This document shows, one piece after another, positions 7,008-57,962 of a stretch of 64,000 bases of DNA (the stretch's first letter is position 1; each line of letters starts with the position of its first letter). The DNA is from Alteriqipengyuania flavescens (lineage in GTDB: Bacteria > Pseudomonadota > Alphaproteobacteria > Sphingomonadales > Sphingomonadaceae): contig NZ_CP129107.1 of NCBI RefSeq assembly GCF_030406725.1, forward strand, positions 248,001-312,000. Reading direction: 5' to 3'. The notes under the pieces are model-generated. The model was not told the origin of the DNA. It saw only the letters and a list, made by a program, of their open reading frames with translations, and ran no database searches. A program made the translations under genes and the position numbers.

Positions 7008-7009
7008 CG

Positions 7010-7687: not shown

Positions 7688-7690
7688 CGC

Positions 7691-10104: not shown

Positions 10105-11928
10105 TTATTCGACGGTTACGGACTTGGCCAGATTGCGCGGCTGGTCGACGTCCGTGCCCTTTGCAACGGCCGTGTGATAGGCGAGGAGCTGCACCGGGAT
10201 CGCATAGACCAGGGGCGCGATCAGCGTGTGGACCTTGGGCATCTCGATGGTCGCCATGCACCCCTCGCCCGCCTCTTCCAGCCCCTCGGCGTCCGAGATC
10301 AGGACGATCTTGCCCCCGCGTGCGCTCACTTCCTGCATGTTCGACACGGTCTTTTCGAACAGCGGGCCCGACGGCGCGATCACGATGACCGGCACCGCCT
10401 CGTCGATCAGCGCGATGGGGCCGTGCTTCATCTCGCCCGAAGCATAGCCTTCGGCATGGATGTAGCTGATTTCCTTCAGTTTCAGCGCGCCTTCCATCGC
10501 AATCGGGAAGTCCTGCCCGCGGCCCAGGTACAGCACGTCGCGTGCCGGGGCGATGAGGTGCGCCATGGCGGCAATATCCTCGTCATGGGCGAGCGCGGCG
10601 TTTAGGCAGGCGGGCACCTCGATCAGGTGACGCACGATCTCCGCCTCCTCCGCGCGGTCGATGCGCCCGCGCTTCACCGCCATGTGCGCTGCCAGCGCCG
10701 CAAGCACGGCCAGCTGGCAGGTGAAGGCCTTGGTCGAGGCGACACCGATTTCCGGCCCGGCATGGGTCGGCAGCAGCAAGTCCGCCTCGCGCGCCATCGT
10801 GCTGGTGGGCACGTTGACGACCACTGCGATGGTCTGGCCGTTTTCCTTGCAATGGCGCAGCGCGGCCAGCGTGTCCGCCGTTTCCCCGCTCTGCGAGATG
10901 AACAGCGCCAGCCCGCCCGGCTCCAGCACCGGGTCGCGATAGCGGAATTCGGACGCCACATCGATGTCCACCGGCAGGCGCGCGAACTGTTCGAACCAGT
11001 ATTTCGCCACGAGCCCGGCGTAATAGGATGTGCCGCAGGCGACGATGGTGACGCGGTTGATGGCCGACAGGTCGAAGTCGATCTGCGGCAGCGCCACCGT
11101 GCCGTCTTCGCGCCGGACGTAGGAGGACAGCGTCTGCGCCACCACGGTCGGCTGCTCGAAGATCTCCTTCTGCATGAAGTGGCGGTAATTGCCCTTCTCG
11201 ATCGCGGCGGCGGTCGCGCCCGAGGCGACGACATCGCGCGTCACCTCGTTGTTCTCGCTGTCGTAAATCGTCGCGCCGTCGCGTGTGATGACGACCCAGT
11301 CGCCTTCTTCCAGATAGGTGATGTGCTGGGTCAGCGGGGCCAGCGCCAGCGCGTCGGAGCCGAGGTAGGTCTCCCCTTCGCCATAGCCCACCACCAGCGG
11401 CGAGCCGAGCCGCGCGCCGATCAGCATGTCGGGATGGTCCTTGAACGCGATAGCCAGCGCAAAGGCGCCGCGCAGACGGGGCAGCACGTCCCGCACCGCA
11501 TCGCGCGGCGAGGCACCGTCCTCGTAAGCCTGCGAGACGAGGTGGGCGACGACTTCCGTATCGGTTTCGCTCTCGAAAGTGCGGCCCTTGGCCTGCAGCT
11601 CGTCGCGCAGCTGCTTGAAATTCTCGATGATGCCGTTGTGGACCAGCGCCAGGTGCTCGGTCGCATGCGGGTGCGCGTTCTTGGCGGTCGGCGCGCCGTG
11701 GGTGGCCCAGCGGGTATGCGCAATGCCGATATCGCCCGGCGCATCGTCCTTCTTCAGCACCTCGACGAGGTTGGACAGCTTGCCTTCCGCCCGGCGGCGC
11801 ACAAGCTCGCCATCATGCACGGTGCACACGCCGGCGCTGTCGTAGCCGCGATACTCCATCCGCTTGAGGCCATCGACCAGCCGATCCGCAACCGGCTGAC
11901 TGCCGATAATTCCGATAATTCCGCACAT
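10105..11928 (-). CDS. glmS: Glutamine--fructose-6-phosphate aminotransferase (isomerizing)
   Basis: Makes glucosamine-6-phosphate from fructose-6-phosphate and glutamine, the first step to UDP-GlcNAc for peptidoglycan and LPS. The product is 607 aa, the usual length. It begins MCGIIGIIGS, so Cys2 becomes the N-terminal nucleophile after Met removal, followed by GLKRMEYRGYDSAGV. The isomerase half shows SIS motifs (ACGTSYYAG, ISQSGETADTLAAL) and ends LAKSVTVE. It is encoded 18 bp after the PIN toxin gene, while glmU lies beyond the toxin-antitoxin pair, so its transcription may depend on read-through. No glmS ribozyme is evident upstream. Confidence 0.98.
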   Translation of the reverse strand: MCGIIGIIGSQPVADRLVDGLKRMEYRGYDSAGVCTVHDGELVRRRAEGKLSNLVEVLKKDDAPGDIGIAHTRWATHGAPTAKNAHPHATEHLALVHNGIIENFKQLRDELQAKGRTFESETDTEVVAHLVSQAYEDGASPRDAVRDVLPRLRGAFALAIAFKDHPDMLIGARLGSPLVVGYGEGETYLGSDALALAPLTQHITYLEEGDWVVITRDGATIYDSENNEVTRDVVASGATAAAIEKGNYRHFMQKEIFEQPTVVAQTLSSYVRREDGTVALPQIDFDLSAINRVTIVACGTSYYAGLVAKYWFEQFARLPVDIDVASEFRYRDPVLEPGGLALFISQSGETADTLAALRHCKENGQTIAVVVNVPTSTMAREADLLLPTHAGPEIGVASTKAFTCQLAVLAALAAHMAVKRGRIDRAEEAEIVRHLIEVPACLNAALAHDEDIAAMAHLIAPARDVLYLGRGQDFPIAMEGALKLKEISYIHAEGYASGEMKHGPIALIDEAVPVIVIAPSGPLFEKTVSNMQEVSARGGKIVLISDAEGLEEAGEGCMATIEMPKVHTLIAPLVYAIPVQLLAYHTAVAKGTDVDQPRNLAKSVTVE

Positions 11929-11946
11929 GGTTACAAGGCCTTGCTG

Positions 11947-12315
11947 TCAGAGTGAATAGGGTACGCGGATGCCCGGCATGCGCGCCGGGAAATCCTTGGT
12001 GTTTCGGGTGACGAGGATGCGGCCAGCGACCTGCGCCGACGCCAGGATTATTGCGTCGGGTGCCTTTAGAGACTTGCGCTGATGGCGCAAGTCGGCGGCG
12101 CGGCGGGCAATTTCCTCGTCGATTTCGCTCATCGCGAACAGGCGGAGGAACTCTTCCGTCTCCGATGCGGCGGCATCGGGTACGCCCGACATGACCTCGA
12201 TCCAGGTCATCCGGCTGATCCATGCCCTGCCGACATTGCGCACTTCCGCCCATGCCGCAGGGCGATCGTGCAGCATGTCGATGATGATATTGGTGTCGAA
12301 GAAACGCTCGCTCAC
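11947..12315 (-). CDS. PIN-domain ribonuclease toxin (VapC-like)
   Basis: A 122-aa PIN-domain protein starting at GTG 12315 (sequence VSERFFDTNIIIDMLHDRPA). The PIN acidic residues are visible: D in FFDTNI, E in MTWIEVMSG, D in APDAIILASA and the late NTKDF. This is a complete VapC-type RNase active site, which typically cleaves tRNA or other structured RNA. The start overlaps the antitoxin stop by 4 bp (GTGA), implying translational coupling. The longer open frame upstream only re-reads the antitoxin gene. The module sits between glmU and glmS. Confidence 0.9.
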   Translation of the reverse strand: MSERFFDTNIIIDMLHDRPAAWAEVRNVGRAWISRMTWIEVMSGVPDAAASETEEFLRLFAMSEIDEEIARRAADLRHQRKSLKAPDAIILASAQVAGRILVTRNTKDFPARMPGIRVPYSL

Positions 12316-12584
12316 GGCTTGGGCGGTTTGGCTTGCGCCTGGTCGAGGTCCGCCACGTCGGGCCACTCCCCGCGCAGCTTGCGTTCGTATTCCAACCCGT
12401 CGACCGACGATCCATGGCGCGACCATAGGCCGAAATATTTCTCGAACCCCTGGCGCGATTCGGACGCGAGGTAATCCGCCACCGCCTCGCGGATCAAGGC
12501 CGCGCGCGACTTCGATTCCGCCCGGGCGAGCTCATCGAGGCGAACGAGGTCCTCTTCAGGGATATCTGCTAGCACGCGCGACAC
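12312..12584 (-). CDS. Ribbon-helix-helix antitoxin (VapB/CopG-like)
   Basis: A 90-aa DNA-binding antitoxin with an N-terminal ribbon-helix-helix: RVLADIPEEDLVRLDELARAE followed by SKSRAALIREAVADYL. The charged C-terminal part (residues 50-90, proline/lysine-rich tail AQAKPPKP) would be the toxin-neutralising segment. The start is GTG 12584; no Shine-Dalgarno sequence is obvious and no alternative in-frame Met exists, so a very short leader or leaderless start is possible. Palindromes at 12587-12615 immediately upstream are the likely autoregulatory operator. It is coupled by GTGA to the PIN toxin. Confidence 0.88.
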   Translation of the reverse strand: MSRVLADIPEEDLVRLDELARAESKSRAALIREAVADYLASESRQGFEKYFGLWSRHGSSVDGLEYERKLRGEWPDVADLDQAQAKPPKP

Positions 12585-12586
12585 GG

Positions 12587-12615
12587 TGATATACCGATAT
12601 CATATCGTGATATCA
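12587..12615. promoter_or_regulatory. Candidate operator of the toxin-antitoxin pair (palindromes)
   Basis: Two adjacent inverted repeats lie just upstream of the antitoxin GTG. The first is TGATAT-N4-ATATCA (12587-12602) and the second is TGATATCA (12608-12615), sharing the half-site TGATAT. Multiple spaced palindromes of this kind are the usual binding sites for RHH antitoxin/toxin complexes. The regulatory role is inferred from position. The stretch is also distinctly AT-rich against the surrounding GC-rich DNA. Confidence 0.6.
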
Positions 12616-12630
12616 TCGCAAGAAGAATGT

Positions 12631-13998
12631 TTAGCCGCCCTTCTCCGCCGCCTTCTTCTTGCGCATCGCGTCGTGGAAGCGGTCGGCCCAGCCTGGCTTC
12701 ATCAGCTGTTCGCCGCGGACCAGTCGCAATTCGCCGTCGTCCACGTCGCGCGTCACCGCGCTGCCCGCGCCGACGATGGCATCGCGGCCGATCTTCACCG
12801 GGGCCACCAGCGCGCTGTTGGAGCCGATGAAGGCCCCCTCGCCGATGACCGTCCGGTGCTTGAAATAGCCGTCGTAATTGCAGGTGATCGTGCCCGCCCC
12901 GATATTCGCCTTCGCGCCAACGGTGGCATCGCCGATGTAGCTTAGGTGGTTGGCCTTTGCGCCCTCGCCCAGCGTCGCCTTCTTCATTTCGACGAAATTG
13001 CCGACCTTGGCGCCTTTCTCCATCACCGCGCCCGGGCGCAGGCGGGCATAGGGGCCGACTTCGCAGCCTTCGCCCACCGTAGCGCCTTCAAGGTGGCTGA
13101 ACGCCCGGATCTTCGCGCCCTTCGCCACGCTGGTGCCGGGGCCGAAAACCACGTTGGGCTCCACCACGACATCGCTTGCGAGCTCGGTATCGTAACTGAA
13201 GAACACGGTTTCGGGCGCGCGCAGCGTCACGCCGCCCGCCATCGCATCCTCGCGCCGGTCGGCCTGCCATTGGGCTTCCGCCGCGGCGAGTTCCGCGCGG
13301 CTGTTGATCCCGGTCACTTCCTCCGGCTTGTCGGTCGTCACCACCGCACAATTGCGCCCGTCGCCGATGGCGATGTTGACGATGTCAGGCAGGTAGTATT
13401 CGCCTTGTGCGTTGTCGTTCGACACGCGGTCGAGCAGCGCGAAAAGGTCCGCCGCCTTCGCCGCCATCAGGCCCGAATTGCACAGGGTGCAGGCGCGCTC
13501 CGCCTCGCTCGCGTCCTTGTATTCGACCATCTTCACGATGTGGCCCTGTTGCGCGATCACCCGGCCATAGGCCTTGGCGTCGTCCGGTTCGAAGCCCAGC
13601 ACCACCGCAGCCGGGCTGTCGGCCTCGTTCAACCGGTCGACCATCGCCTGCATCGTGGCCGCGCGCACGAAAGGCACATCGCCGTACATCACCAGCACGT
13701 CGCCTTCGAAGCCAGCGAGCGCGTCCCTCGCCTGCTGGACCGCGTGGCCGGTGCCGTGCTGCGGCATCTGCAGCGCGAAGTCGCAGCGGCCCGCCAGCGC
13801 CTCTTCCACCTGCTCGCGCCCCTCGCCCGTCACCACGACGAGCTTTTCCGGCGACAGCCTTTCCACGCTGGCGAGCAGGTGCTCGACCATGGAACGCCCG
13901 GCGATGGGATGCAGGACCTTGTGCAGGTCGCTCTTCATGCGGGTGCCCTTGCCCGCGGCGAGGATGACGGCGGCGATCGATCGTGTCTGAGTGCTCAT
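12631..13998 (-). CDS. glmU: Bifunctional UDP-N-acetylglucosamine pyrophosphorylase / glucosamine-1-P N-acetyltransferase
   Basis: Converts glucosamine-1-phosphate to UDP-GlcNAc in two steps. The product is 455 aa. The N-terminal uridyltransferase has AAVILAAGKGTRMKSDLHKVL, and MPQHGTGHAV and MYGDVPF for UTP/Mg binding. The C-terminal left-handed beta helix has hexapeptide repeats (GAKVGNFVEMKKATLGEGAK, HLSYIGDA) and ITCNYDG for acetyl transfer. ATG 13998 (MSTQTRSIAAVILAAG) is preferred to the open frame 15 codons upstream, which would overlap the divergent gph leader. The stop is followed within 50 bp by the toxin-antitoxin operator. Confidence 0.98.
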   Translation of the reverse strand: MSTQTRSIAAVILAAGKGTRMKSDLHKVLHPIAGRSMVEHLLASVERLSPEKLVVVTGEGREQVEEALAGRCDFALQMPQHGTGHAVQQARDALAGFEGDVLVMYGDVPFVRAATMQAMVDRLNEADSPAAVVLGFEPDDAKAYGRVIAQQGHIVKMVEYKDASEAERACTLCNSGLMAAKAADLFALLDRVSNDNAQGEYYLPDIVNIAIGDGRNCAVVTTDKPEEVTGINSRAELAAAEAQWQADRREDAMAGGVTLRAPETVFFSYDTELASDVVVEPNVVFGPGTSVAKGAKIRAFSHLEGATVGEGCEVGPYARLRPGAVMEKGAKVGNFVEMKKATLGEGAKANHLSYIGDATVGAKANIGAGTITCNYDGYFKHRTVIGEGAFIGSNSALVAPVKIGRDAIVGAGSAVTRDVDDGELRLVRGEQLMKPGWADRFHDAMRKKKAAEKGG

Positions 13999-14060
13999 GG
14001 AAAGCGCCCATGCCACCAAAGGGTTGCGGATTGAAGTATGCACGGGCAGGTCCCGCCGCC

Positions 14061-14744
14061 ATGAGCGATTTTCCCTTCGACATCGTGGGCTTCGACCTGG
14101 ACGGCACGCTGGTAAACACCAGCGGCGACCTTGGCGCGGCCGTGAACCATGCGCTGGCGCTGGCCGGGCGCCAGCCGGTGCCCCTCGATAATATCCACGA
14201 GATGGTCGGCGGCGGGGCCAAGATGCTGCTGAAACAGGCGCTGGAGCGCACCGGCGGAATGCCCGCCGACGGGTTCAAGCCATATTACAAGGCGCTGCTG
14301 GCTTATTACGGCGAGCATGTCTCGGTCCATTCCCACCCCTACGAAGGCTGCGTGGAGGCGCTGGAAGCGCTTGCGGCGATGGACGTCACGCTGGCGGTGG
14401 TAACCAACAAGTTCGAAAGTTTCGCCCGCACGCTGCTGGGGGACCTCGGCCTCCTCGGCCATTTCGCGCTTCTGGTCGGCGGCGACAGCCTGGGCAAGGA
14501 TGCTGACGGGCAATACCGCGCCAAGCCGATGCCCGATCCCCTGCTCCACATCCGCACGGAATGCGGCGGCGGGCCCATGGCCTATATCGGCGACAGTTCC
14601 TACGACGTAGATGCGGCAAAGGCGGCGGGCATTCCGGTGCTGGTGGCCGGTTGGGGATACAACGACCGCCCGGCAGGGGAACTGGGCGGCGATGCGGTGA
14701 TTCGCGGCTTCGACGAGCTTATCCCCGCCCTCAAGGCGCTTTGA
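14061..14744 (+). CDS. gph: Phosphoglycolate phosphatase, HAD superfamily
   Basis: Dephosphorylates 2-phosphoglycolate formed during DNA repair or oxygenation reactions. The 227-aa product has all HAD motifs: DIVGFDLDGTLVNT (motif I nucleophile Asp), VVTNK (motif II), a lysine in RAKPMPDPLL (motif III) and YIGDSSYDVDAAKAAG (motif IV). ATG 14061 is chosen over an in-frame upstream ATG because it starts the motif I strand directly. It is divergent from glmU with about 60 bp between starts. Other HAD substrates cannot be excluded. Confidence 0.9.
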   Translation: MSDFPFDIVGFDLDGTLVNTSGDLGAAVNHALALAGRQPVPLDNIHEMVGGGAKMLLKQALERTGGMPADGFKPYYKALLAYYGEHVSVHSHPYEGCVEALEALAAMDVTLAVVTNKFESFARTLLGDLGLLGHFALLVGGDSLGKDADGQYRAKPMPDPLLHIRTECGGGPMAYIGDSSYDVDAAKAAGIPVLVAGWGYNDRPAGELGGDAVIRGFDELIPALKAL

Positions 14745-14881
14745 TCACGCGCGCGTTCCCGCGCAAGGCGCGGTCTGACGTTACGGAAAGCGGGGACCCA
14801 TAATCGCGCGGTTGAATTGACCGCCGGTGCATGCCATCGACCCCGCAGAATTCAGCCAGTTTCACGACAGGAGACACCCCC

Positions 14882-15790
14882 ATGTCCATCGATTTCAAAG
14901 ACCGCGTAGCCATCGTCACCGGCGCCGGCGGCGGCCTGGGCCGCGAATATGCGCTCGAACTCGCCCGCCGCGGCGCCAAGGTCGTCGTCAACGACCTCGG
15001 CGGATCGCGCGACGGCACCGGCCATTCCGACGCCGCGCTGCAGGTGGTCGAGGAAATCAGGGAAGCCGGCGGCACCGCCATGTCGAACGGCGGCAGCGTG
15101 ACCGAATTTGCCCAGATGGAAGAAATGGTCGCCAAGGCGAAGGAAGAATGGGGCGGCGTCCACGTCCTGATCAACAACGCCGGCATCCTGCGCGACAAGA
15201 GCTTCGCCAAGATGACGATGGACGACTGGAAGATCGTCGTCGACGTGCACCTCAACGGTAGCGCCAACGTGACCAAGGCCGTGTGGGAAACCATGCGCGA
15301 GCAGGCCTATGGCCGTATCCTGATGACCGCCAGCAGCACCGGCCTGTTCGGCAACTTCGGCCAGGCGAACTACGGCGCGGCCAAGCTCGGCCTCGCCGGC
15401 TTCACCAAGACGCTCTACCTCGAAGGCGCGAAGTACAACATCAAGGTGAACACGCTGGCGCCGGTCGCCGCGACGCGCATGACCGAAGACATCATGCCGG
15501 AAGCCATGTTCAAGATGCTCGGCCCGGAAAACGTCGTCCCGGCGGCGCTCTACCTCGTCAGCGAAGACGCGCCGACCAACGCGATCGTGGGCGCGGGTGC
15601 AGGCGGCTATCACTCCGCCTTCGTGACCATGAACACGCCGGTCATCCTGGACCAGGACGATCGCACGGTCGAAGGTTTCGCCGCCCACTGGGACGAGATT
15701 TCGAAGACCGAGCCAATGACGATCCCGAACTCCGGTGCGGAGCAATCGGGCGCGATCATGACCGCGATGCAGAAGAAGATGGCCGGCTAA
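14882..15790 (+). CDS. SDR family oxidoreductase (MFE-2/HSD17B4-type 3-hydroxyacyl-CoA dehydrogenase-like)
   Basis: A 302-aa short-chain dehydrogenase. The Rossmann motif is VTGAGGGLGREYAL, followed by the VVVNDLGGSRDGTG segment typical of the dehydrogenase domain of peroxisomal-type multifunctional enzyme. NNAGIL and the catalytic Ser-Tyr-Lys set (ASSTGLFGNFGQANYGAAKLG) are intact. The C-terminus extends about 50 residues beyond a minimal SDR. AGGAGA lies at good spacing before ATG 14882. It is a single-gene unit ending in a strong palindromic terminator. A fatty-acid or sterol-type hydroxyacyl-CoA substrate is inferred from the family. Confidence 0.9.
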   Translation: MSIDFKDRVAIVTGAGGGLGREYALELARRGAKVVVNDLGGSRDGTGHSDAALQVVEEIREAGGTAMSNGGSVTEFAQMEEMVAKAKEEWGGVHVLINNAGILRDKSFAKMTMDDWKIVVDVHLNGSANVTKAVWETMREQAYGRILMTASSTGLFGNFGQANYGAAKLGLAGFTKTLYLEGAKYNIKVNTLAPVAATRMTEDIMPEAMFKMLGPENVVPAALYLVSEDAPTNAIVGAGAGGYHSAFVTMNTPVILDQDDRTVEGFAAHWDEISKTEPMTIPNSGAEQSGAIMTAMQKKMAG

Positions 15791-15865
15791 GCCGCCACGC
15801 TGCCGGGCGACATGACGATGCGCCTACCCGCCACCGCCTGATAATTCCGGCGCAGACAGACGGAT

Positions 15866-15900
15866 CCGGCTGCGCAGCTGCGCAGCCGGGCCTTTTCGCG
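15866..15900 (+). terminator. Rho-independent terminator after the SDR gene
   Basis: A perfect 24-bp palindrome at 15866-15889 (arms CCGGCTGCGCAG and its complement) is followed by GCCTTTTC. It lies 75 bp past the SDR stop and just before the convergent DUF2794 gene, so it may stop transcription from both sides. Confidence 0.75.
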
Positions 15901-16257
15901 TCAGGAATCCACCGATTTCAGTAGCCGCCGCTCTATCGGGGCGAGGACGCTGGCGAGCTCCTGCCCGCGCTTGAGCATCTGGCCCTGTTCGCCGACGAGC
16001 GCCCACATGCCTTGCTTCATGCGCAGCGCCGGGCGCTTTTCGATCCGCACCTCAGGGCGTTCCGCCGCGCGGCGAAAGGCGGCGAAGACCGCCACGTCGC
16101 GGGTGAAGTCCATAGCGTAGTCGCGCCACTGGCCGGCGGCGACCATGCGGCCGTAGAGGTCGAGGATGCGCTGCAACTCCAGCCGTTCGAACCCCACCTG
16201 CTGCGGCTGGCGCCCCGGAAACGGCACGATCCGCGCCGCGTCGTTCAAACCCGCCAT
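15901..16257 (-). CDS. DUF2794 domain-containing protein
   Basis: A 118-aa protein of the alphaproteobacterial DUF2794 family; its function is not known. Visible features are VGFERLELQRILDLYGRMVA near the N-terminus, the central WRDYAMDFTRDVAVFAAFRRA, and RPALRMKQGMWALVGEQGQMLKRG, which match the family pattern. No signal peptide or membrane segment is seen. Its ATG overlaps the cysE stop by one base (TGATG), indicating coupled translation with the serine acetyltransferase. Confidence 0.85.
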   Translation of the reverse strand: MAGLNDAARIVPFPGRQPQQVGFERLELQRILDLYGRMVAAGQWRDYAMDFTRDVAVFAAFRRAAERPEVRIEKRPALRMKQGMWALVGEQGQMLKRGQELASVLAPIERRLLKSVDS

Positions 16258-16967
16258 CAGCTATCGGTCCCCGTGGGTCGCGGCGCGTCCCTTTCGGCGC
16301 GCAATTCCTGCAACTGGGCGGAAACCTCCGCCAGCTGTGCCTGCAATTCGGCGATGCGGCCGTCCACATCCGCGGGCAATTCGGGGCACGGCGGGCACGG
16401 TTCCTCGCACGGGGTGCCATAGGGCATGAATTCGCGCGCCCATTCTTCCACCGGCATCAGGGTGGAGCGGGCCTTGAGGCCGATCATCGTCGCGCCTTCT
16501 GGCACATCGTCGGTGACCACCGTGTTGGCGCCGATCCGCGCCCGTTCATTCACCGTGATGGGGCCCAGGATCTGCGCGCCGGAGCCCACGATCACACCAT
16601 CCGCCAGCGTCGGGTGCCGCTTGCCCGGCACGCCGTTGGTCGGGTTGGTGCCGCCCAGCGTCACGCACTGGTAGATCGTCACATCGTCCCCGATCTCCGC
16701 CGTTTCGCCGATCACCGTGAAGCCGTGGTCGATGAAGAGGTGGCGGCCGATCTTGGCGCCGGGATGGATGTCGATGCCGGTCACCATGCGCGACCAGTGG
16801 TTCACCAGCCGGGCGAGGAAGAACAGCTTCCCCCCGAACAGCCAGTGGGCGATGCGGTGGTAGAAGATCGCCCAGACGCCGGGATACAGCAGCACTTCCC
16901 AGCGGCTGCGCGGTGCCGGGTCGCGGGCCTTGATGGAATCGAGAAAGGAGACGAGTTTTTCGAACAT
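16257..16967 (-). CDS. cysE: Serine O-acetyltransferase (EpsC/CysE type)
   Basis: Transfers acetyl from acetyl-CoA to serine, the first step of cysteine synthesis. The product is 236 aa. The alpha-helical N-terminus (LYPGVWAIFYHRIAHWLF) is short, as in EpsC. The left-handed beta helix follows with IDIHPGAKIGRHLFIDHGFTVIGE, including the catalytic His-Asp pair, then VTLGGTN and GKRHPTL. Unusually, a cysteine/proline-rich stretch (GTPCEEPCPPCPEL) and a coiled-coil-like tail of about 35 residues follow the catalytic domain. The start was set at ATG 16967 (MFEKLVSFLDSI). Confidence 0.93.
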   Translation of the reverse strand: MFEKLVSFLDSIKARDPAPRSRWEVLLYPGVWAIFYHRIAHWLFGGKLFFLARLVNHWSRMVTGIDIHPGAKIGRHLFIDHGFTVIGETAEIGDDVTIYQCVTLGGTNPTNGVPGKRHPTLADGVIVGSGAQILGPITVNERARIGANTVVTDDVPEGATMIGLKARSTLMPVEEWAREFMPYGTPCEEPCPPCPELPADVDGRIAELQAQLAEVSAQLQELRAERDAPRPTGTDS

Positions 16968-17041
16968 CGCGGCAATCCTTTCACTTCGGCGCGCATCGCG
17001 CAAGTTTGCCGGCCCGGGCCGCGTTAAAGGATGCGGCCGCG

Positions 17042-17653
17042 TTACAGGAGGCGCGGGGCCTCCGGTCCCTCGACCGCCTCCAGCGCGGCGCGCCAGACTG
17101 CTAGCGACGGCGGGCTCTTGCGCTCCAGGCTGATGCGGTCGATCTCGGCCACGATCTTTTCCGCCCCGGCAAAGCTGCGCGCCATGCGGGGCACGAGGTA
17201 TCTGGTGGCTTCTTCGCCCAGCGCAAGGCCGCGCATCGCCGCGTGTTCTTCTATCAGCGCCGCGAGCATCGCGTCGTCGGGTGCGCCGATTTCGAGCTGC
17301 AGCGCCGCGCCGAGGCGGGAGCGCAGGTCCGGCAGCTTGATATCCCAGCTTTCGCGGTCCACGATCAGCAGCAGCCGCTCGCCCCCTTCGCGGGCGCGAT
17401 TCCAGCGGTGGAACAGCGCGGTCTCGTCCAACGTGTCCGCGCCGTCGATGGTGGTGCCAAGGCCTTGCTGCACGAACCAGCCGCCCATCAGCGACTTGCC
17501 GGAGCGCGGTGGGCCGAGAAGGATCGCGGTGCCGAAAGGCCAGTTCGACGGGTCGGAGATCGCGTCCGCCACATGGGCGTTGGCGGGGCCAAGTACGATG
17601 CGCGAAGGCGCGGCCTTTCCGGCACGCTCCAGCGGAAGGGCGATCTGGCTCAA
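17042..17653 (-). CDS. hdaA: DnaA-related regulatory ATPase, HdaA-like
   Basis: A 203-aa AAA+ protein related to DnaA domain III, lacking the DnaA N-terminal and DNA-binding domains. Walker A is GPPRSGKS (residues 47-54). A Walker-B-like LLLIVDRE follows, as does the sensor-type LRSRLGAALQLEIGAP segment of Hda proteins. The N-terminal QIALPLE resembles the clamp-binding peptide (QL[SP]LPL type) through which Hda binds the DNA polymerase beta clamp. It is expected to trigger hydrolysis of DnaA-ATP after initiation. It lies 10 bp after the DUF2066-like gene on the same strand. Confidence 0.9.
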   Translation of the reverse strand: MSQIALPLERAGKAAPSRIVLGPANAHVADAISDPSNWPFGTAILLGPPRSGKSLMGGWFVQQGLGTTIDGADTLDETALFHRWNRAREGGERLLLIVDRESWDIKLPDLRSRLGAALQLEIGAPDDAMLAALIEEHAAMRGLALGEEATRYLVPRMARSFAGAEKIVAEIDRISLERKSPPSLAVWRAALEAVEGPEAPRLL

Positions 17654-17663
17654 CCGTGCGCCC

Positions 17664-18962
17664 CTAGCGCGTGATGGAGAGCGCGCTGGGGCCCTGCGTC
17701 ACGTTCCAGCCGCGCGCCCGCAATGCAGCGGCCAGAGCCGACAGATCGCCGGTGTAGGTCACGCGCATGACCGAGGTGCCGCCGATCGCCGTCGAGCTCA
17801 CCGAAGCGGCGCCGACGCCGGGCGTGCCGCGGACCGAACCGAGCGCGGCATCGAATGCCGCACCGTCGGGCGAGGCGAACTGGACCACGTATGTCACGGT
17901 CGGTACCGGGGCCGCCGTTTCGGTCGGCATGGGCGAAGGTGTGGCCGCGCCTTCCCCGCTGCCGGAGGAACTGCTGCTGCGCGATGCGCCGCTTGCGGCA
18001 TCGGCCTGCGCCTGGTTTTTCGCCCGCAGCTGGTCGAGAGCGGCGCGCCATTCGGGGCTCAGGCTGAGTGTCTGGCGGCCCAGCGTCGGGTCGGGGCTCA
18101 GCCTACCGTCGGCCAGCGCCTTGCTGTAGATCTGATCGAAGCGGGCGACCGCTTGTTCGTACATCGCGGGGATGGCGGCATCGTTGGCGGCTTTCAGGCG
18201 GAAGCTGCCGAGATATGCGTTGTTGGGGCCATAGCGGGCGACGAAGTTCGCCTCCACCGGTCCGCCGGGATATTGCCGCGTCACTTCGGCGATGGCGACC
18301 AGGACGTCGGACGCGCCGAACTGGTCGAGGATGTTGCGCCACCACACACGGCTGCGGCGGCCGGTCTGGCCATAGGTGAGCAGGAGCGATTCGCCCCCGG
18401 CCCCGCTCGGCCGGACGTAGTCGACCGGGCTCGACCCGAAATTCGCTTCCGCCCAGGCGCGCTGCCATTCGGTGCGGCTTTCGAACATCGTGTAGACGCC
18501 GCCTTCGTTGAGGACGGGCAGCATCAGCATCGGTGCGGAACGCTTGGCCTGGCTGCCCCGGCCAACCATACCGCCGGCGCGCTGACGGTCGAACACCACG
18601 CCCAGCGTGGCGATATAGCGTTTCGGCCCGATCGATTCGCGCTCGATCAGGATGCCCGCGACCATCGAATTGAGCTGGCCGTCGGAGATTTCGGGACCTT
18701 CCAGCTTCTCCCACGCGAGGCGGGCGGCTTCGGTCCAGCCCTTCTCGCGTGCTTCCTGCGCGGTGTCCGCCGTGACATCGACCTCGATCTCGCCGACTTC
18801 GATATCGGTCGACTGCGCGCGCGGCTGGATGCCGCGGTCGCCTTCGATCTGCGCGCGCACCGCCACCAGCGCAACCAGCAGCAGGGCGCCCGCCAGCAGC
18901 ACGCCGATTGCGCGCGCGGACAGGTGCATGATGCGGGGAAGAGGCGGAAGAATGGTCGTCAT
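17664..18962 (-). CDS. DUF2066-like membrane-anchored protein with C-terminal ferredoxin-like domain
   Basis: A 432-aa protein of unknown function. One N-terminal transmembrane segment (residues 18-37, ALLLVALVAVRA) would place the rest in the periplasm. Residues 55-280 follow the DUF2066 pattern (AREKGWTEAARLAWEKL and RYIATLGVVFDRQR). A Ser/Gln/Ala-rich linker near 335-360 leads to a C-terminal HMA-like fold (VTYVVQFASPDGAAF... RVTYTGDLSALAAALRARGW) without the CxxC metal site. It is divergent from purM (68 bp) and upstream of hdaA in one transcription unit. ATG 18962 is used; an internal ATG at 18929 is an alternative. Confidence 0.75.
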   Translation of the reverse strand: MTTILPPLPRIMHLSARAIGVLLAGALLLVALVAVRAQIEGDRGIQPRAQSTDIEVGEIEVDVTADTAQEAREKGWTEAARLAWEKLEGPEISDGQLNSMVAGILIERESIGPKRYIATLGVVFDRQRAGGMVGRGSQAKRSAPMLMLPVLNEGGVYTMFESRTEWQRAWAEANFGSSPVDYVRPSGAGGESLLLTYGQTGRRSRVWWRNILDQFGASDVLVAIAEVTRQYPGGPVEANFVARYGPNNAYLGSFRLKAANDAAIPAMYEQAVARFDQIYSKALADGRLSPDPTLGRQTLSLSPEWRAALDQLRAKNQAQADAASGASRSSSSSGSGEGAATPSPMPTETAAPVPTVTYVVQFASPDGAAFDAALGSVRGTPGVGAASVSSTAIGGTSVMRVTYTGDLSALAAALRARGWNVTQGPSALSITR

Positions 18963-19030
18963 CGGGGAAAGTCAGCGCCTTTTGCCCAAAGCCGAGTGGA
19001 AATCCAAGCGCGAAAGGCTAAGGCGAAGCA

Positions 19031-20128
19031 ATGAGTGGCAAGAACTCCCCCTTTACCTACGAAGACGCGGGCGTCTCCATCGCCGCCGGCAATGCGCTGG
19101 TGAAGGCGATCGGACCGCTGGTGAAAGCGACTGCGCGCCCCGGTGCCGATGGCGAGATCGGCGGCTTCGGCGGCTTCTTCGACCCGAAGGCGGCCGGATA
19201 CAGCGACCCGCTGCTCGTCGCCGCGAACGACGGGGTCGGCACCAAGCTGAAGCTGGCCATCGATACGGGCCGGCACGATACGGTGGGCATCGACCTTGTC
19301 GCCATGTGTGTGAACGACCTGATCGTGCAGGGCGCGGAGCCGCTGTTCTTCCTCGACTATTTCGCCACCGGCAAGCTGGAGCACGGCGTCGCGGAGCGGG
19401 TGATCGCGGGCATTGCGGAAGGCTGCAAGCAGGCCGGCTGCGCGCTGATCGGCGGCGAGACCGCGGAGATGCCCGGCATGTATGCCTCGGGCGATTACGA
19501 CCTCGCCGGCTTCTGCGTCGGCGCGGTGGAGCGCGGCGAGCAATTGACCGGCGAGGGCGTGACGGCTGGCGACTTGCTGGTCGGCCTTGCCTCTTCGGGC
19601 GTGCATTCGAACGGCTATTCGCTCGTGCGCAGGCTGGCGGCGGACAAGGGCTGGAAGCTCGACCGCCCGGCCCCGTTCGATCACGAGCGCCTGCTGATCG
19701 ACCACCTGATCGAGCCGACGCGCATCTATGTGCAAAGCCTGCTGCCAGCGGTGCGCAAGGGGATGGTGAAGGCGATGGCGCATATCACCGGCGGCGGTCT
19801 GCTCGAAAATATCCCCCGTGTCCTGCCCGAAGGCGCACGCGCCGTGGTCGATGCGGATAGCTGGCCGCAGCCCGCGCTGATGGCCTTCCTGCAGGGCCAG
19901 GGAAATATCGAGCCCGAGGAAATGGCCCGCACCTTCAACTGCGGCGTCGGCATGGTGGTGGCGATCGAACCCGACAAGGCGGACGATTTCCTCGAACTGA
20001 TGCGGGCGCAGGGCGAAGGCGCATTCGTGGTCGGCAGCGTGGAGAGCGGCACCAGGGGCTGCACCGTGCGCGGATCGCAGGGAACCTGGGCCGCCAAGGC
20101 CGACTGGTCCGCCGGGCACGATGGCTGA
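19031..20128 (+). CDS. purM: Phosphoribosylformylglycinamidine cyclo-ligase (AIR synthetase)
   Basis: Closes FGAM to aminoimidazole ribotide with ATP in purine synthesis. The product is 365 aa. Visible motifs are [17 protein letters not shown], the glycine-rich [53 protein letters not shown] and [11 protein letters not shown], all diagnostic of Pur[17 protein letters not shown] is the C-terminal signature. Its 3' end overlaps purN by 8 bp. Confidence 0.98.
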
Positions 20129-52581: not shown

Positions 52582-52790
52582 AGTGTCAGGACCTCATTAA
52601 ATTCTTACGTTTCTTGTTTATGGCCAGGCTCGTCCGGTCCCCTCAAAGGCCGTCCAACCCGTTCGATGCGGTCGTTGCCATCAAAAGGTGACAACATCGT
52701 TACCACCGCCCTAAGGTGGGTGAACCCCACCGTCGAACCGGGAGAATCCCCCTGGCAACGCCCCCATCGAGAGCCGTTGAGGCCCCTCCT

Positions 52791-53777
52791 ATGCGATTAC
52801 CGCCCCTGATTGCAACCGCCTTGGCCGGTTTTCTCTTGCTTTTTAGCGCGAAAGCCCAAGCAACTGACGCGAATATGACACAGTTGGACGCGCGCCTTTC
52901 CGGTGTCGCACATCGAATTACTGCCGCCAACGCACCGCTTTGCAGGTACTCGATGCCCGGACTTGGCCTGTCGCTAATCAGTCGCGACCAGTATTCGGAC
53001 ACCCCTTATGACCAGCCCCACCCTGCCTTCATCGACGACAGCCGGGTTGCCCTGAGTGCCGTGGCGGCGGACGGGCCTGCCGCCCGGGCAGGGCTGCGGG
53101 CGGGTGACGCGCTGTGGCTGGCAGCCGGGGAGCCGCTCCCGGAGCGCCGCGAGGAGGATCAGTTCCGCTATATGTCCGTGTTCAGCGCGCTGGCGGACCG
53201 GGATTCCGCCGCGCCAGTCACCCTTTCCGTTTCACGGGGCGCATATCTGACGGAAGTGACGGTCGAACCCGCACCGGCCTGCCGTTCGCTGATCGAGATT
53301 TTCCCGTCGAACGAGAAATTCGCCCGTGCGGACGCCGAGATCGTGCAGATCTCCTCCGCGCTCGCGGCGACGCTGGATGACGGACAGCTTGCTGTGGTCG
53401 TGGCCCACGAGCTGGCCCACCAGGTGCTGGAACATCGGCGCCGGCTGGAAGAAGCGGGAGTCAGAAAAGGCCTGCTCGCCGAATTCGGCAAGAACGCCCG
53501 CCGAAACCGGCGCGCAGAGATCGAGGCGGACCGGCTGAGCGTCCACCTGCTTGCGAATGCGGGGTATGATCCGATGCTCGCCCCGCAATTCTGGCTCTCC
53601 GAAACAGGTGCCGAGCGAGACGGAGGCTGGCTACGCAGCCGCGCCTACCCCGCGCGAGAACGCCGCGCCGCGTTAATGGAAACAGAAATAGTCGAGTGGA
53701 GCCTGGAAGCCGGCAAATTCTCGTCTGCAGCCCCGCTCGTAGCGTGGCGCGACAGGTCAATCGACATAGAAGAATGA
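52791..53777 (+). CDS. Secreted PDZ-M48 family metalloprotease
   Basis: A 328-aa protein with a signal peptide (residues 1-24, LIATALAGFLLLFSAKAQA). Residues about 60-160 form a PDZ-like domain (VALSAVAADGPAARAGLRAGDALWLAAGEPL). The M48 catalytic domain follows with VVVAHELAHQVLEH (HExxH) and the third ligand Glu in RRAEIEADRLSVHLLANAGYDP. Both zinc motifs are intact. Unlike BepA, no TPR domain is seen. It is probably a periplasmic quality-control protease; the target is unknown. ATG 52791 puts the signal peptide first. Confidence 0.9.
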   Translation: MRLPPLIATALAGFLLLFSAKAQATDANMTQLDARLSGVAHRITAANAPLCRYSMPGLGLSLISRDQYSDTPYDQPHPAFIDDSRVALSAVAADGPAARAGLRAGDALWLAAGEPLPERREEDQFRYMSVFSALADRDSAAPVTLSVSRGAYLTEVTVEPAPACRSLIEIFPSNEKFARADAEIVQISSALAATLDDGQLAVVVAHELAHQVLEHRRRLEEAGVRKGLLAEFGKNARRNRRAEIEADRLSVHLLANAGYDPMLAPQFWLSETGAERDGGWLRSRAYPARERRAALMETEIVEWSLEAGKFSSAAPLVAWRDRSIDIEE

Positions 53778-53935
53778 ATAGCGGCGACCTCAGCCATCTC
53801 CCGGCATGGCGACATACGATTGAAGCCAATTGACCGCTTTCGAAGCCAGGCGAAGGACATCGTGCTAGCTAGCGAAGTCGGCTCCACATTTTTCTTCACT
53901 TCTTATGTGCTTGCGCTACCGATCAGGCGGGTGGC

Positions 53936-54757
53936 ATGGTAACCGTGGACGACAAGGCCGATCTCGATATCGAATTGATTTCCGCGCTTTATCGGGCAGC
54001 GGGTGAGCGGGACGCCTTCGATGAATTGATTACGACCCTTAAGGCACGCTACGTCGACGTGCACGGTCGCGATGAGGAAACCCGTCCAGCGGTTGTGGAT
54101 CAGCTTCACCGCATCGACCAATTCCTGCCACATTCCATTGAAAGCTGGCGCGACGAGCTCGAACGTGCGGTCGAGGATGTTCCAAGCGCCGCCATCGTGT
54201 TCGACACGGCGGGCAACGTCATGGTCGCCAACCGGGACGGAGAAGAATTGTTCGGCACCAAGCCGGGTCGCCGCGTGGGGCTCGATATCGTCGATCCAGC
54301 CTATCGTTCGGCACTGCGCGATTTTTTCGCCGATGCGCGCAAGGGTATCAACCATCGGCGAATGATCGTCAGGCTGGATACAGAAGAACTCGCGCGCCGC
54401 AAAATCAGCGTCCGCGCGATGGAATTGTGCGAAGCGGTAATTGTTGAGGACAGCCGGCGCAATTATCCATGCATCGCGCTGAGAGTGCTCGACATCCCGT
54501 GGACGGAAGATCTCGAGGCGCAGCTGGATGAAGCCTTTGCCCTCACAGAGGCAGAGCGCGGGATCGCGCGCGAATTCTACGAGCTGCGCGGCAGCGCTAG
54601 GGTCGCCGTCGCACGCGGGACCAGCCCGGCGACGGTACGCACCCAGATTAAGTCTATTTTCGGCAAGACCAGCACGACCAACCAGGCAGGGCTGCTTCAC
54701 CTGCTTTCCCTGCTGGCGGCGCGCGCGGCGAAGTGGCGGCTTGGACCAATCCGCTAG
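53936..54757 (+). CDS. PAS-containing LuxR-type transcriptional regulator
   Basis: A 273-aa regulator. Residues about 80-190 look like a PAS sensor (VPSAAIVFDTAGNVMVANRDGEELFG). The C-terminal 65 residues form a LuxR-type HTH: FALTEAERGIAREFYELRGSARVAVARGTSPATVRTQIKSIFGKT followed by AGLLHLLSLLAARAA. The usual signal-binding autoinducer domain is absent. An alpha/beta hydrolase gene overlaps its 3' end by 25 bp, so the two are probably co-expressed. The start ATG 53936 follows a TGC-rich AT spacer; its Shine-Dalgarno is not strong. Confidence 0.85.
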   Translation: MVTVDDKADLDIELISALYRAAGERDAFDELITTLKARYVDVHGRDEETRPAVVDQLHRIDQFLPHSIESWRDELERAVEDVPSAAIVFDTAGNVMVANRDGEELFGTKPGRRVGLDIVDPAYRSALRDFFADARKGINHRRMIVRLDTEELARRKISVRAMELCEAVIVEDSRRNYPCIALRVLDIPWTEDLEAQLDEAFALTEAERGIAREFYELRGSARVAVARGTSPATVRTQIKSIFGKTSTTNQAGLLHLLSLLAARAAKWRLGPIR

Positions 54758-55635
54758 GGCGCGAGTTTGCCCATCGTCGCGGGGACGGGCGCGTCCTTCG
54801 CTACATGTGGCAGGGTGCGCCCGATGGCCAGCCGGTGCTGGTGCTGCACGGCTACACGATGGCCAACGCAGTGTCGCCTGAGGCCGAGCGCGTGTTCCGC
54901 GATGCCGGCTATCGCCTGCTCGTCGTCTCGCGCCCCGGTTTCGGCGCCAGCGAGTACGATCAGGGGCGCGACGCCGGCGAGGAAAGTGCCGACGCGATCG
55001 TGGGACTCTGCCAGCATCTCGGGCTGACCGATACGCCTGCTCTTGCAATCAGTACCGGCATGGTGCCGCTCGCCGCCGTGCTTGCCCGGCAGCCGCACCT
55101 CGTTCGCAGCATCGTGATGACCGGCCACCTGTTTCTTGGCGAGGTTTCGCTCAATCCGCAGCTATCATTTTATCAGCGTCTCATGCTGAACCTGATGCGC
55201 CGGGCGCCGCGGGTGCAAAGCACCTTTTCCCGCATCGCCTATCGCAATATGCAGCGCGTCGGCGTGGACTGGTACATCGAGCGGCTGATCGAGGCCGGAT
55301 CGAGCGACGAAGCCTATTTCCGCTCCGGCCAAAATGCCGACCTCGTCCGCGCGGCGGCGAGCCATCTGTTCGCTCAGGGACCCGATGTCTTCTCGCGGGA
55401 ATTGCGGATTGATCGGTCGCCCGGGGTCTCCTTGATGCGCGACTCCCGATACCCGCTGCTGGCGCTGGTCCAAGGCGAGAACGCCGTCCACGGCTTTAAG
55501 AGCTATCGCGATTTCCTTAATCTTGGATCCCATACCCGAATCGAGGAACTGGTAGGGCACGGCGACCTGTATTTCTATAGCGCCGGAGAGCAAATCGCGC
55601 GCATGGCCGTCGATCATTTCGCTGCATCATCTTAG
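54733..55635 (+). CDS. Alpha/beta hydrolase paired with the LuxR-type regulator
   Basis: A 300-aa hydrolase-fold protein. LVLHGYTMANAVSPEAE is the oxyanion loop; VVSRPGFGASEYDQGRD follows strand 4. The nucleophile elbow is LAISTGMVPLAA, so the serine sits in AxSxG rather than GxSxG. A late His in VGHGDLYFYSAGEQIA could complete the triad. The start is GTG 54733, within the regulator gene; a later start would cut the N-terminal strand. No signal peptide. The substrate is unknown; given the pairing it may make or degrade the ligand sensed by the regulator (inference). Confidence 0.85.
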   Translation: MAAWTNPLGREFAHRRGDGRVLRYMWQGAPDGQPVLVLHGYTMANAVSPEAERVFRDAGYRLLVVSRPGFGASEYDQGRDAGEESADAIVGLCQHLGLTDTPALAISTGMVPLAAVLARQPHLVRSIVMTGHLFLGEVSLNPQLSFYQRLMLNLMRRAPRVQSTFSRIAYRNMQRVGVDWYIERLIEAGSSDEAYFRSGQNADLVRAAASHLFAQGPDVFSRELRIDRSPGVSLMRDSRYPLLALVQGENAVHGFKSYRDFLNLGSHTRIEELVGHGDLYFYSAGEQIARMAVDHFAASS

Positions 55636-55763
55636 CGTCCGCCCGTTTCCCGTCCAACGCGACCGAAAGTGCAATTAACCGGCGCCCCATACCCCAGCTG
55701 GGCTATGACACCGCCGCCCCGATCATCGCATGGCACCCGCTCGCAAAAAACGGGAGCTCACTC

Positions 55764-57962
55764 ATGATCAATCTTACATTCGCATCGCCCACGGCTCTCA
55801 CCATAGTCGGCATGGCCGCAGTACTCACTTCAAGCACGGCGCAGGCCGACGACTGCCTGCTCGACCGCGACAATGATGGCGTCGTCGATGCCGGTACAGA
55901 CAACGATGGCGGAGCTAATTCGAACAATGATAATCGCGCGCTCGCGTGCGGCATCGGTGCCACGGCGACCGGGGCGAACGGAGCCACCGCCGTCGGCACG
56001 GACTCTGCGGCAACCGGCGTCGCATCCACCGCCGTAGGCGAATTTGCCACCGCCAGCGGAACTGAGAGCGTGGCGATCGGCGAAGATTCCGATGCTACTC
56101 AACAGGGCGCGACTGCGGTCGGCAGCGGAGCGCAGGCGACGGGTTTAGCCTCGACGGCGGTCGGCGGTGATATTGATCCGACGGGCAGTACGAATGCAGC
56201 CCTGGCTTCCGGAGCACAATCGACTGCTATCGGCTCCAGTGCCAAGGCGACCGCATTCAACACAACCGCTCTTGGTTTCGGGGCGGCAGCAACTGAAACC
56301 GATGCGACTGCACTGGGTGTCAACGCGGCAGCCAGTGGAGGATACAGTGTCGCTGTAGGTAACTTTTCGCGAACGACAGGCGACTATGGCGTAGCGGTTG
56401 GCAACCAGGCTGAGGCTTCCATTAATGCTGTCGCGATCGGGCCCTCATCAGTGGCGAGCGAATGGAACGCAATTGCCATCGGCTCGAGCTCCGAGGCTTC
56501 CGGCTGGGATGGCGTCGCTATCGGCCTCGATGCCAAGGCGACTGGGCATTTTTCAACAGCGATAGGGGGCGGAGCGATTGCCGACTTCGGCGATTCGACT
56601 GCTCTTGGATACAGCGCAGACATCGGCGGCGTTGGCGCAACGGCCGTGGGTTCCAAAGCCGGCGCACAAGGAGAATCTTCGGTCGCTATTCGAAGAAGGA
56701 CTTATTCTTCGGGGGTAGGCAGCATTGCCATCGGAGGTGATGGAGACGATTCTGGCGGCGAAGGCGCACGAGCTTGGGGAGGGTCCGCAATAAGCATCGG
56801 AGCGGATGCATACGCTTCCGGTGAGGCAGCGATCGCATTGGGAGGCGGTGCGGGCGTCACCGCCGACGGCGCGATGGCGCTAGGTGCAGATGCCGTGGCA
56901 AACATGAATTCGATTGCCTTGGGGCGTGAGTCCAGCGCCACCGGCGAAAGCGCCTTTGCAGGCGGTAATGCCAGCGTGGCGAATGGGCTTGCCGCGCTTG
57001 CTCTTGGCGGGGATGGCGACGATCTCGATGCAATTGGCGCCCAGGCTATCGGATTGGCTGCCGTGGCCCTTGGCGCGGACACGCGGGCCTTGGCCGGAAA
57101 CAGTGTGGCGATTGGCCGCGAGACACTGGCGAACCAGGTATCCGCCACGGCGATCGGCCTGCGGGCGCAGGCTACGGGCGAGAATGCGACGGCGATCGGT
57201 TCGGTTGCCGATGCGGGCGCCCGGTTCGGCACGGCGGTCGGTCGCTCGGCCACGGTCGGCGGGATCGGCTCCACTTCGGTGGGTGCGTTCACCAGCACGT
57301 CGGGCAATTCGGCAACGGCGGTCGGTTACCAGGCGACGGCCGGCGGCAACGCGACTGCCATCGGGCGCGAATCCTCGGCGACCGGCGGCGGGGCGACGGC
57401 AGTGGGGCGCCTGTCCAATGCTGCCAACGACCGCGCCACGGCCGTCGACTTTGCCGCTACCACCACCGCTGACGACCAGGTGATGCTGGGCGGTGCGGGC
57501 AGCTCGGTCGCCATCGGCGACATCGCTGCTTCCGACGCGGCGCAAGTGGGCGAAGAGCAGTTCGTCACCATCGACGGCAACGGCACGCTCGGCGTCTCCA
57601 ACGCCGCGACCGCCGCCTCGGTCGCCACCGTGCGGGCGCAGGTCCAGTCCATCGCCGCGGTCAGCGACATGCAGTTCGCGGCGCTGGAGGGGCGGGTGAC
57701 CGATCTCGACTTTCGCCTGGACGAGCTCGACGGCTCGACCCGCGGCGGGATCGCGCAGGCGATGGCGATGGGCGGCACGATGGTGGTGCCCGACAGCACC
57801 ATCTCGGTCAGCGTCAACGCGGCGACCTATCGCGGCGAGCAGGGCCTGTCCGGCTCGGTCGTCGCGCGCATCGCCCCGCGCGTCTACGTCAACGGCGCGG
57901 TCGCCACCTCCACCGCCGACAAGGAAGCCAGCGGCCGCGTGGGCGTCGCCTTCGGGTTCTGA
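55764..57962 (+). CDS. Trimeric autotransporter-like (YadA-type) adhesin
   Basis: A 732-aa surface protein. A signal peptide (residues 1-28, ending STAQAD) leads to an Asp/Asn-rich Ca-binding-like segment (CLLDRDNDGVVDAGTDND). Residues about 65-600 are YadA-head repeats of about 14 residues (AxAxGxxAxAxG type). Two longer units share GGDGDD (residues about 325 and 420). A short coiled coil (SVATVRAQVQSIAAVSDMQF) precedes the YadA membrane anchor, which ends TADKEASGRVGVAFGF. The anchor is complete, so surface display is expected. The head region is less GC-rich than the anchor. A terminator follows. Confidence 0.92.
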   Translation: MINLTFASPTALTIVGMAAVLTSSTAQADDCLLDRDNDGVVDAGTDNDGGANSNNDNRALACGIGATATGANGATAVGTDSAATGVASTAVGEFATASGTESVAIGEDSDATQQGATAVGSGAQATGLASTAVGGDIDPTGSTNAALASGAQSTAIGSSAKATAFNTTALGFGAAATETDATALGVNAAASGGYSVAVGNFSRTTGDYGVAVGNQAEASINAVAIGPSSVASEWNAIAIGSSSEASGWDGVAIGLDAKATGHFSTAIGGGAIADFGDSTALGYSADIGGVGATAVGSKAGAQGESSVAIRRRTYSSGVGSIAIGGDGDDSGGEGARAWGGSAISIGADAYASGEAAIALGGGAGVTADGAMALGADAVANMNSIALGRESSATGESAFAGGNASVANGLAALALGGDGDDLDAIGAQAIGLAAVALGADTRALAGNSVAIGRETLANQVSATAIGLRAQATGENATAIGSVADAGARFGTAVGRSATVGGIGSTSVGAFTSTSGNSATAVGYQATAGGNATAIGRESSATGGGATAVGRLSNAANDRATAVDFAATTTADDQVMLGGAGSSVAIGDIAASDAAQVGEEQFVTIDGNGTLGVSNAATAASVATVRAQVQSIAAVSDMQFAALEGRVTDLDFRLDELDGSTRGGIAQAMAMGGTMVVPDSTISVSVNAATYRGEQGLSGSVVARIAPRVYVNGAVATSTADKEASGRVGVAFGF

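Follow-up and report, generated by a model that had tools for sequence, protein, structure and literature searches.

A putative split regulator with a hydrolase-fold sensor half beside a YadA-like adhesin gene in Alteriqipengyuania flavescens

Introduction

Two overlapping genes of Alteriqipengyuania flavescens, one for a putative regulator and one for a hydrolase-like protein, lie beside an adhesin gene, which raises the question of whether an enzyme here acts on the small molecule that its partner senses or whether the two reading frames are related in some other way. The stretch analyzed, hereafter the window, comprises 64,000 nucleotides of contig NZ_CP129107.1 (positions 248,001 to 312,000), and coordinates refer to positions within it. 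The initial annotation had placed the two open reading frames (ORFs) correctly, both on the forward strand, in different frames and with an overlap of 25 bp. The features discussed are the following.

53936 to 54757, forward strand: regulator half with an N-terminal helical stretch, PAS and LuxR-type HTH; 273 aa from ATG
54728 to 54741, forward strand: shortened linker of 14 nt, identified by linker comparison, with the frame change inside
54733 to 54757, forward strand: 25-bp overlap of the two reading frames, which differ in frame
54733 to 55635, forward strand: alpha/beta-hydrolase-fold half with incomplete triad and AISTG elbow; 300 aa from GTG
55688 to 55707, no strand assigned: candidate operator CATACCCCAGCTGGGCTATG, with one mismatch to the 20-bp palindrome CATACCCC-N4-GGGGTATG
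55764 to 57962, forward strand: YadA-like trimeric autotransporter adhesin, the likely target; 732 aa

Fused relatives

Relatives of the pair were sought in 199 genomes of the same family with the hydrolase half as query (matches with E below 1e-19). Besides the window, 11 places matched, all within open frames of 574–675 aa that the regulator half matches as well. A profile of the fused proteins retrieved further relatives among 296 genomes of the order, and a search of named genome contigs with the fused alignment yielded five loci (Erythrobacter, Altererythrobacter, Sphingomonadaceae, Alphaproteobacteria, and Hyphomicrobiales); the window hydrolase alone, used as query of the named genome contigs, found no relative. 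The core relatives are 14 distinct genes (L061, L062, two in L063, L064–L070, L110, L132, and L134; L130, L131, and L133 are the same contigs as L068, L063, and L066 and are not counted), with gene calls at the compared loci based on ORF length and composition and start codons uncertain. Each is a single ORF of 560–675 aa, and the proposal that the two genes belong together, for which co-conservation was the check, is thereby upheld: the 14 core relatives all carry them as one polypeptide. Among the strong matches of the family and order searches, only the window carries the two halves in two frames, and its genome holds one match per half. The fused architecture consists of PAS, a LuxR-type HTH, and a C-terminal alpha/beta-hydrolase fold lacking the full triad; predicted one-component regulators of this kind occur in at least three orders of Alphaproteobacteria.

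The regulator half

The first ORF aligns over its whole length with the fused relatives. Its initial description as a PAS-HTH regulator stands in part. Pfam gives a weak PAS match (PF00989, E = 2.9e-4, 21.3 bits against a cut-off of 22.6), and the GerE domain is matched at E ≤ 0.01 by 6 of the 11 aligned fused relatives (best, 2.7e-7), but the window protein itself has no GerE match in Pfam even at E ≤ 1. In the AlphaFold2 model of the fused relative L132, the order of elements appears PAS-like and HTH-like by eye. The reported lack of an autoinducer domain was borne out, with none among the Pfam and NCBIfam matches, and an identity as a quorum-sensing LuxR was rejected on this ground. A sigma-70 scan of 53700–55800 found no promoter-like site. 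Directly upstream of the regulator lies an M48-type peptidase gene (52716–53777) with a weak PDZ-like stretch.

The hydrolase-fold half

For the second ORF, PF00561 falls just below its cut-off (E = 2e-5, 24.8 bits against 25.8). The AlphaFold2 model (pLDDT 79.9, pTM 0.82) retrieves esterases with Foldseek (best E 1.4e-14, TM 0.68–0.74), and residues 272–562 of L132 compare with 9wlv at Z 25.4 and rmsd 2.9 over 280 aligned residues. By its modeled fold, the second half belongs to the alpha/beta-hydrolase superfamily, and the AxSxG elbow noted at the outset is present as AISTG.

Triad columns were read from a profile alignment of 43 rows (42 fused proteins and the window), for which hmmsearch alignments to esterases of solved structure served as anchors; 8 of the rows are gapped at the nucleophile column. 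In the window, the nucleophile, acid, and His columns hold Ser, Asn, and Asp, respectively. Across the alignment, 6 of the 43 rows have Ser at the nucleophile column and 3 have His at the His column; in no row (0 of 43) does a nucleophile, be it Ser, Asp, or Cys, occur together with His. Because Asp persists at the acid column in 30 of the 43 rows, the triad is broken mainly at the nucleophile and His. Seven further rows from plasmid homologues show Ser in three and His in none; over these and the 43 aligned rows, the combination of nucleophile and His is found in 0 of 50. Stand-alone hydrolases from the same family of genomes served as controls (10 loci among L013–L030 with an open frame below 400 aa, picked by length); all 10 keep the nucleophile (9 Ser, 1 Asp), and both of the two in which the alignment reached the His column have His there.

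As aligned, the window half thus does not possess the nucleophile–acid–His triad of active alpha/beta hydrolases, and catalysis by the hydrolase-fold domain is unlikely. A fold that is kept while catalysis is unlikely points to a binding role, and we infer that this half is best read as a sensor domain. The initial annotation had instead suggested that the second protein is an enzyme that makes, modifies, or removes the regulator's ligand. The elbow Ser and the intact fold of the window protein would fit such an active hydrolase, as would the example of RsbQ, which works with a PAS partner and requires its triad (PMC3183031). However, the His and acid columns hold Asp and Asn in the window, nucleophile and His are combined in none of the 50 rows, and a diffusible product would be unneeded because the relatives are fused. 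The active enzyme was rejected on account of the incomplete triad in the window and the fused relatives, and we regard it as very unlikely.

Origin of the split

Between the HTH and the hydrolase fold, the fused core relatives have a linker of 30 nt (10 aa) in 12 of 14 cases and of 27 and 33 nt (9 and 11 aa) in the other two. In the window, the corresponding stretch is bordered by the ARA codons at the HTH end (54719–54727) and the codon of a conserved Trp (54742–54744; the conserved aromatic residue is Tyr in L062), and because it measures 14 nt instead of 30, the frame changes. In separate trees, both window halves stand beside L061 (branch support 0.994 and 0.991), the pattern that splitting of a single fused gene would leave, and since the nearest relative of both is L061, their pairing exceeds chance. 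From these comparisons, the window pair looks like the fission of a fused gene, which explains the tight pairing better than the coming together of two genes.

A sequencing or assembly error in an ordinary fused regulator gene would be compatible with the best explanation of the locus, and would agree with the fusion seen in all 14 core relatives, with the retention by the window of most positions invariant in the core (all 11 in the regulator half and 9 of 11 in the hydrolase half), with the GC-rich character of the region (GCGGCGCGCGCGGCG), and with the fact that the split is known from one genome of the genus, a single strain. On the other side, the linker is 16 nt below the usual 30 and not a single-base slip (although an in-frame shortening combined with a one-base error is possible), no long homopolymer was found at the linker, and the genome is one contig of 2,719,067 bases that is 100% complete. 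We consider such an error unlikely, while granting it appreciable weight.

To the same degree unlikely is that the split gene is a decaying pseudogene, its hydrolase half no longer made and its regulator half inert or constitutive. The branch of the window is longer than that of its sister L061 in the hydrolase half (1.11 against 0.78; 0.78 against 0.79 in the regulator half), and the second half may thus be under relaxed constraint. No Shine-Dalgarno sequence is evident by eye before the GTG at 54733, another adhesin of the window genome is also in two ORFs, and a homologous gene lies in two annotated pieces on one Pseudosulfitobacter plasmid. Against decay stand the 300 codons of the hydrolase half, still open and with coding-like GC by codon position, and the presence before the adhesin gene of a site unmatched elsewhere in the genome at ≤2 mismatches (see below). 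The Pseudosulfitobacter gene (L174, NZ_CP087076.1, 3941–5697) is a distant homologue, a broken allele annotated as two 'hypothetical proteins'; in the other 25 Pseudosulfitobacter records, one alpha/beta hydrolase is annotated beneath the match. Such breaks do, therefore, occur elsewhere.

A programmed −1 frameshift could yield a fused protein from the two ORFs, given that the overlap of the frames is open and that a −1 shift would be needed, yet the overlap (54733–54757) contains no X-XXY-YYZ slippery heptamer; this account was rejected for that reason and appears extremely improbable. If the fused gene was instead split, as we prefer to read it, both halves are probably made, with re-initiation at GTG 54733 giving the second, and they may re-associate in trans, or the regulator half may act alone.

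The adjoining adhesin gene

The adhesin gene reported next to the pair is real. Its product matches YadA_head (PF05658) in 17 stretches (E = 2.7e-45) and YadA_anchor (PF03895) with 26.6 bits against a cut-off of 22.7, the latter falling below the cut-off, to 20.8 bits, in a separate scan of the protein; with head repeats and anchor, it is predicted to be a YadA-type trimeric autotransporter adhesin. A YadA-head adhesin adjoins 10 of the 15 core genes, window included, those without one being L067, L068, L070, L110, and L134; at L061, the gap to the adhesin is 1.4 kb and holds a doubtful opposite-strand ORF. Because YadA anchors number 1–10 per genome in eight of the genomes concerned, a chance neighborhood would be rare. 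YadA heads occur in 85 of the 199 family genomes and the core regulator in only 8 of those 85, so the adhesins do not need the regulator. The conserved neighborhood, together with a candidate operator just before the gene, gives strong support to the YadA-like adhesin as the likely target of the regulator, a role that had been suggested for it from the start as a possibility.

The other adhesin of the window genome mentioned above, the one in two ORFs (L164, G000:C1:660001-672000, 6919–9270, reverse strand), shares with the window adhesin, in the C-terminal part of the latter, 847 bp at 94.7% identity that start at about the break. Such a stretch is suggestive of exchange between adhesins by recombination or gene conversion. 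Hydrolase folds were also seen near adhesins in other settings. L062 carries, among adhesins, a 533-aa regulator-like fusion (L062:3913-5511, reverse strand) with an alpha/beta hydrolase at residues 300–514 and an N-terminus that resembles a SARP-type winged helix by eye, Pfam giving no match there. A stand-alone hydrolase of G107 with nucleophile, acid, and His (L129:9260-10153) is divergent to a giant YadA-head protein (10581–20003, >3100 aa) that is truncated by the locus edge.

A candidate operator

The palindrome CATACCCC-N4-GGGGTATG was derived by comparing the upstream stretches of 20 adhesin genes, window included; three more adhesin ORFs lacking a recognizable mature start were dropped. 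The word CATACCCC/GGGGTATG is common to 6 of the 20 stretches, as many as share the GC-rich word GGCGGCGG (6 of 20), and of these only CATACCCC/GGGGTATG is a palindrome half. The window site follows the hydrolase stop by 52 bp and precedes the adhesin ATG by 56 bp. It is the only site with ≤3 mismatches in the 64-kb window (0.15 expected; at least one site in 13 of 100 shuffles) and the only one with ≤2 in the 2.72-Mb genome, where two others have 3.

When sites were ranked by number of mismatches, 13 of 14 core loci (12 of 13 fused loci and the window) had their best site ≤250 bp from an end of the fused gene, with about 0.056 expected per locus; the test omits L124 and L129, where no fused gene was called. 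The sites of L062 and L064 have four mismatches each and that of L068 three. A leave-one-locus-out matrix places the best site by the fused gene in all 14 core loci, weakly so in L134 (9.9 bits). Since the training sites of the matrix come from the same flanks and the consensus set includes the window, loci never used were called for, and seven plasmid loci from other orders were tested (three from Paracoccus and one each from Pseudosulfitobacter, Aliiroseovarius, Peteryoungia, and Agrobacterium). In all seven, the top site of the whole 11–16 kb locus is 12–89 bp from the fused gene. Two of the Paracoccus loci, with an identical site, are arranged alike, and so are the two Rhizobiaceae loci, which leaves about 5 independent cases.

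For 9 of 10 adhesin-linked core genes, the site precedes the adhesin or falls within the divergent region that the two genes share; the exception is L061, where it precedes the regulator gene. A site upstream of the regulator gene occurs in four loci (L061, L067, L068, and L070) and suggests autoregulation there.

Throughout the 199 family genomes, 13 sites with ≤1 mismatch were found in 12 genomes (reversed control, 1 genome), 5 of them by fused genes and 8 elsewhere. None of the three gene clusters used in this comparison occurs within 1.5 kb on either side of the sites in G128, G007, G171, G091, G066, G041, and G131 (2316266), and the G056 site sits immediately beyond the 3′ end of a LuxR-type ORF. 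At ≤3 mismatches, the motif is no commoner than the reversed control in G016 (2 versus 2) and G053 (4 versus 4), with 3 versus 2 in G160, so site quality and place carry the argument. The eight sites elsewhere would suit a palindrome that belongs to another regulator, with the hydrolase-fold family merely traveling along, as would the fact that DNA binding by the hydrolase-fold regulator is deduced from sequence. This explanation is nevertheless quite unlikely, given that the best site is next to the fused gene both in the core loci (13 of 14) and in the plasmid loci (7 of 7), where neighbors differ.

Adhesins remote from the fused gene were also inspected. No good site was found for those examined in G053, G016, G130, G157, and G000; the remote adhesin of G187 (L166) is cut at the contig end, its upstream side falling outside this comparison. 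In G131, one of two remote places has sites: L150:5288 (20.2 bits) and L150:10120 (11.2 bits) precede adhesins by 124 and 113 bp. These adhesins, some 270 kb away from the fused gene, are possible targets in trans.

Plasmid homologues and the wider clade

Homologues were retrieved from 35 plasmid records; 8 regions were compared, of which 7, all except the broken allele L174, were scanned for the site, and 27 records (24 Pseudosulfitobacter, 2 Paracoccus, and Phaeobacter) were left out of the comparison. The plasmid homologues are of the full-length fused type, with ≥80% of the query covered by a single place in 34 of 35 records, and share the operator in all seven scanned loci. The annotation reads 'alpha/beta hydrolase' or 'alpha/beta fold hydrolase' in 32 of the 35; the Aliiroseovarius protein is named a LuxR C-terminal-related regulator, and two are each called 'hypothetical protein'. 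Unlike at the window locus, no neighbor is annotated as an adhesin in the 8 regions compared. In the Pseudosulfitobacter locus L168 (4696–6825), the operator stands at the start of a divergent gene for a VWA-domain protein, beside the fused gene, so targets may differ between orders.

In a wider second clade, the same consensus is found by the gene in 6 of 26 loci: strongly in L073 (1 mismatch), moderately in L112 and L122 (4 mismatches), and as 5-mismatch ties in the other three. The fused gene of this clade lies near a secreted-looking protein (cluster C2, 256–434 aa as called) in 11 of 26 loci (L072–L076, L079, L111, L114, L115, L117, and L118); the one cluster C2 member scanned had no Pfam match.

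Comparison with known systems

Hydrolase folds are known to act as receptors: D14 and GID1 are plant hormone receptors of this fold, and KAI2 and D14 retain the triad. The proposed regulator would resemble KAI2 in using a hydrolase fold as a receptor, and would differ from KAI2 and D14 in that the fold is fused directly to a DNA-binding domain. The resemblance to LuxR/NarL-type regulators lies in the GerE-type HTH matched by 6 of 11 fused relatives, whereas no receiver or autoinducer domain was found, the putative sensor parts being PAS and a dead hydrolase. NarL sites are arranged 7-2-7. The candidate operator likewise consists of two inverted heptamers with a 2-bp spacer, though its TACCCCA differs at the last base from the NarL heptamer TACYYMT (PMC4886647).

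In the RsbQ–RsbP system of Bacillus subtilis, PAS and an alpha/beta hydrolase together make up a sensing module that precedes an output domain. The hydrolase, RsbQ, is a protein of its own whose gene lies upstream of that for RsbP, and it requires its catalytic triad; the outputs reported for RsbQ–PAS modules are phosphatase, kinase, or cyclase, not HTH (PMC3183031). The presence of PAS and an alpha/beta hydrolase in one module is common to both systems. Here, however, the hydrolase fold is C-terminal, fused in the relatives, and incomplete in its triad, and the output is an HTH, so that a separate upstream RsbQ gene, an intact triad, and an output domain known for that module are all lacking. 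In the titles and abstract beginnings searched, no description of a LuxR–hydrolase fusion regulator or of the palindrome operator was found, the slash in 'alpha/beta hydrolase' probably weakening part of this search.

Proposed mechanism and significance

We consider it probable that the window pair is a split one-component regulator whose dead-hydrolase half senses a ligand and which switches the adjoining YadA-like adhesin through the palindrome. The regulator would bind the palindrome as a dimer, in line with its 7-2-7 inverted repeat TACCCCA-N2-TGGGGTA. A small ligand in the pocket of the dead hydrolase, perhaps together with the PAS domain, would alter DNA binding and thereby switch the adhesin gene; activation and repression are both allowed. 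More tentatively, it is quite possible that the window pair belongs to a widespread, undescribed class of alphaproteobacterial regulators that use a catalytically dead alpha/beta hydrolase as ligand receptor, have a 20-bp operator of their own, and switch surface adhesins in sphingomonads, the window showing a case in which the receptor is split into DNA-binding and sensing subunits.

If this is true, a set of genes annotated as hydrolases would encode transcription factors with a predictable operator, and their targets could be read from genome sequence alone. The family would be a bacterial counterpart of the hydrolase-fold hormone receptors, its members in public plasmid records mostly named hydrolases. 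It would also offer a testable system for the passage from dead enzyme to receptor and would link a chemical cue to bacterial adhesion.
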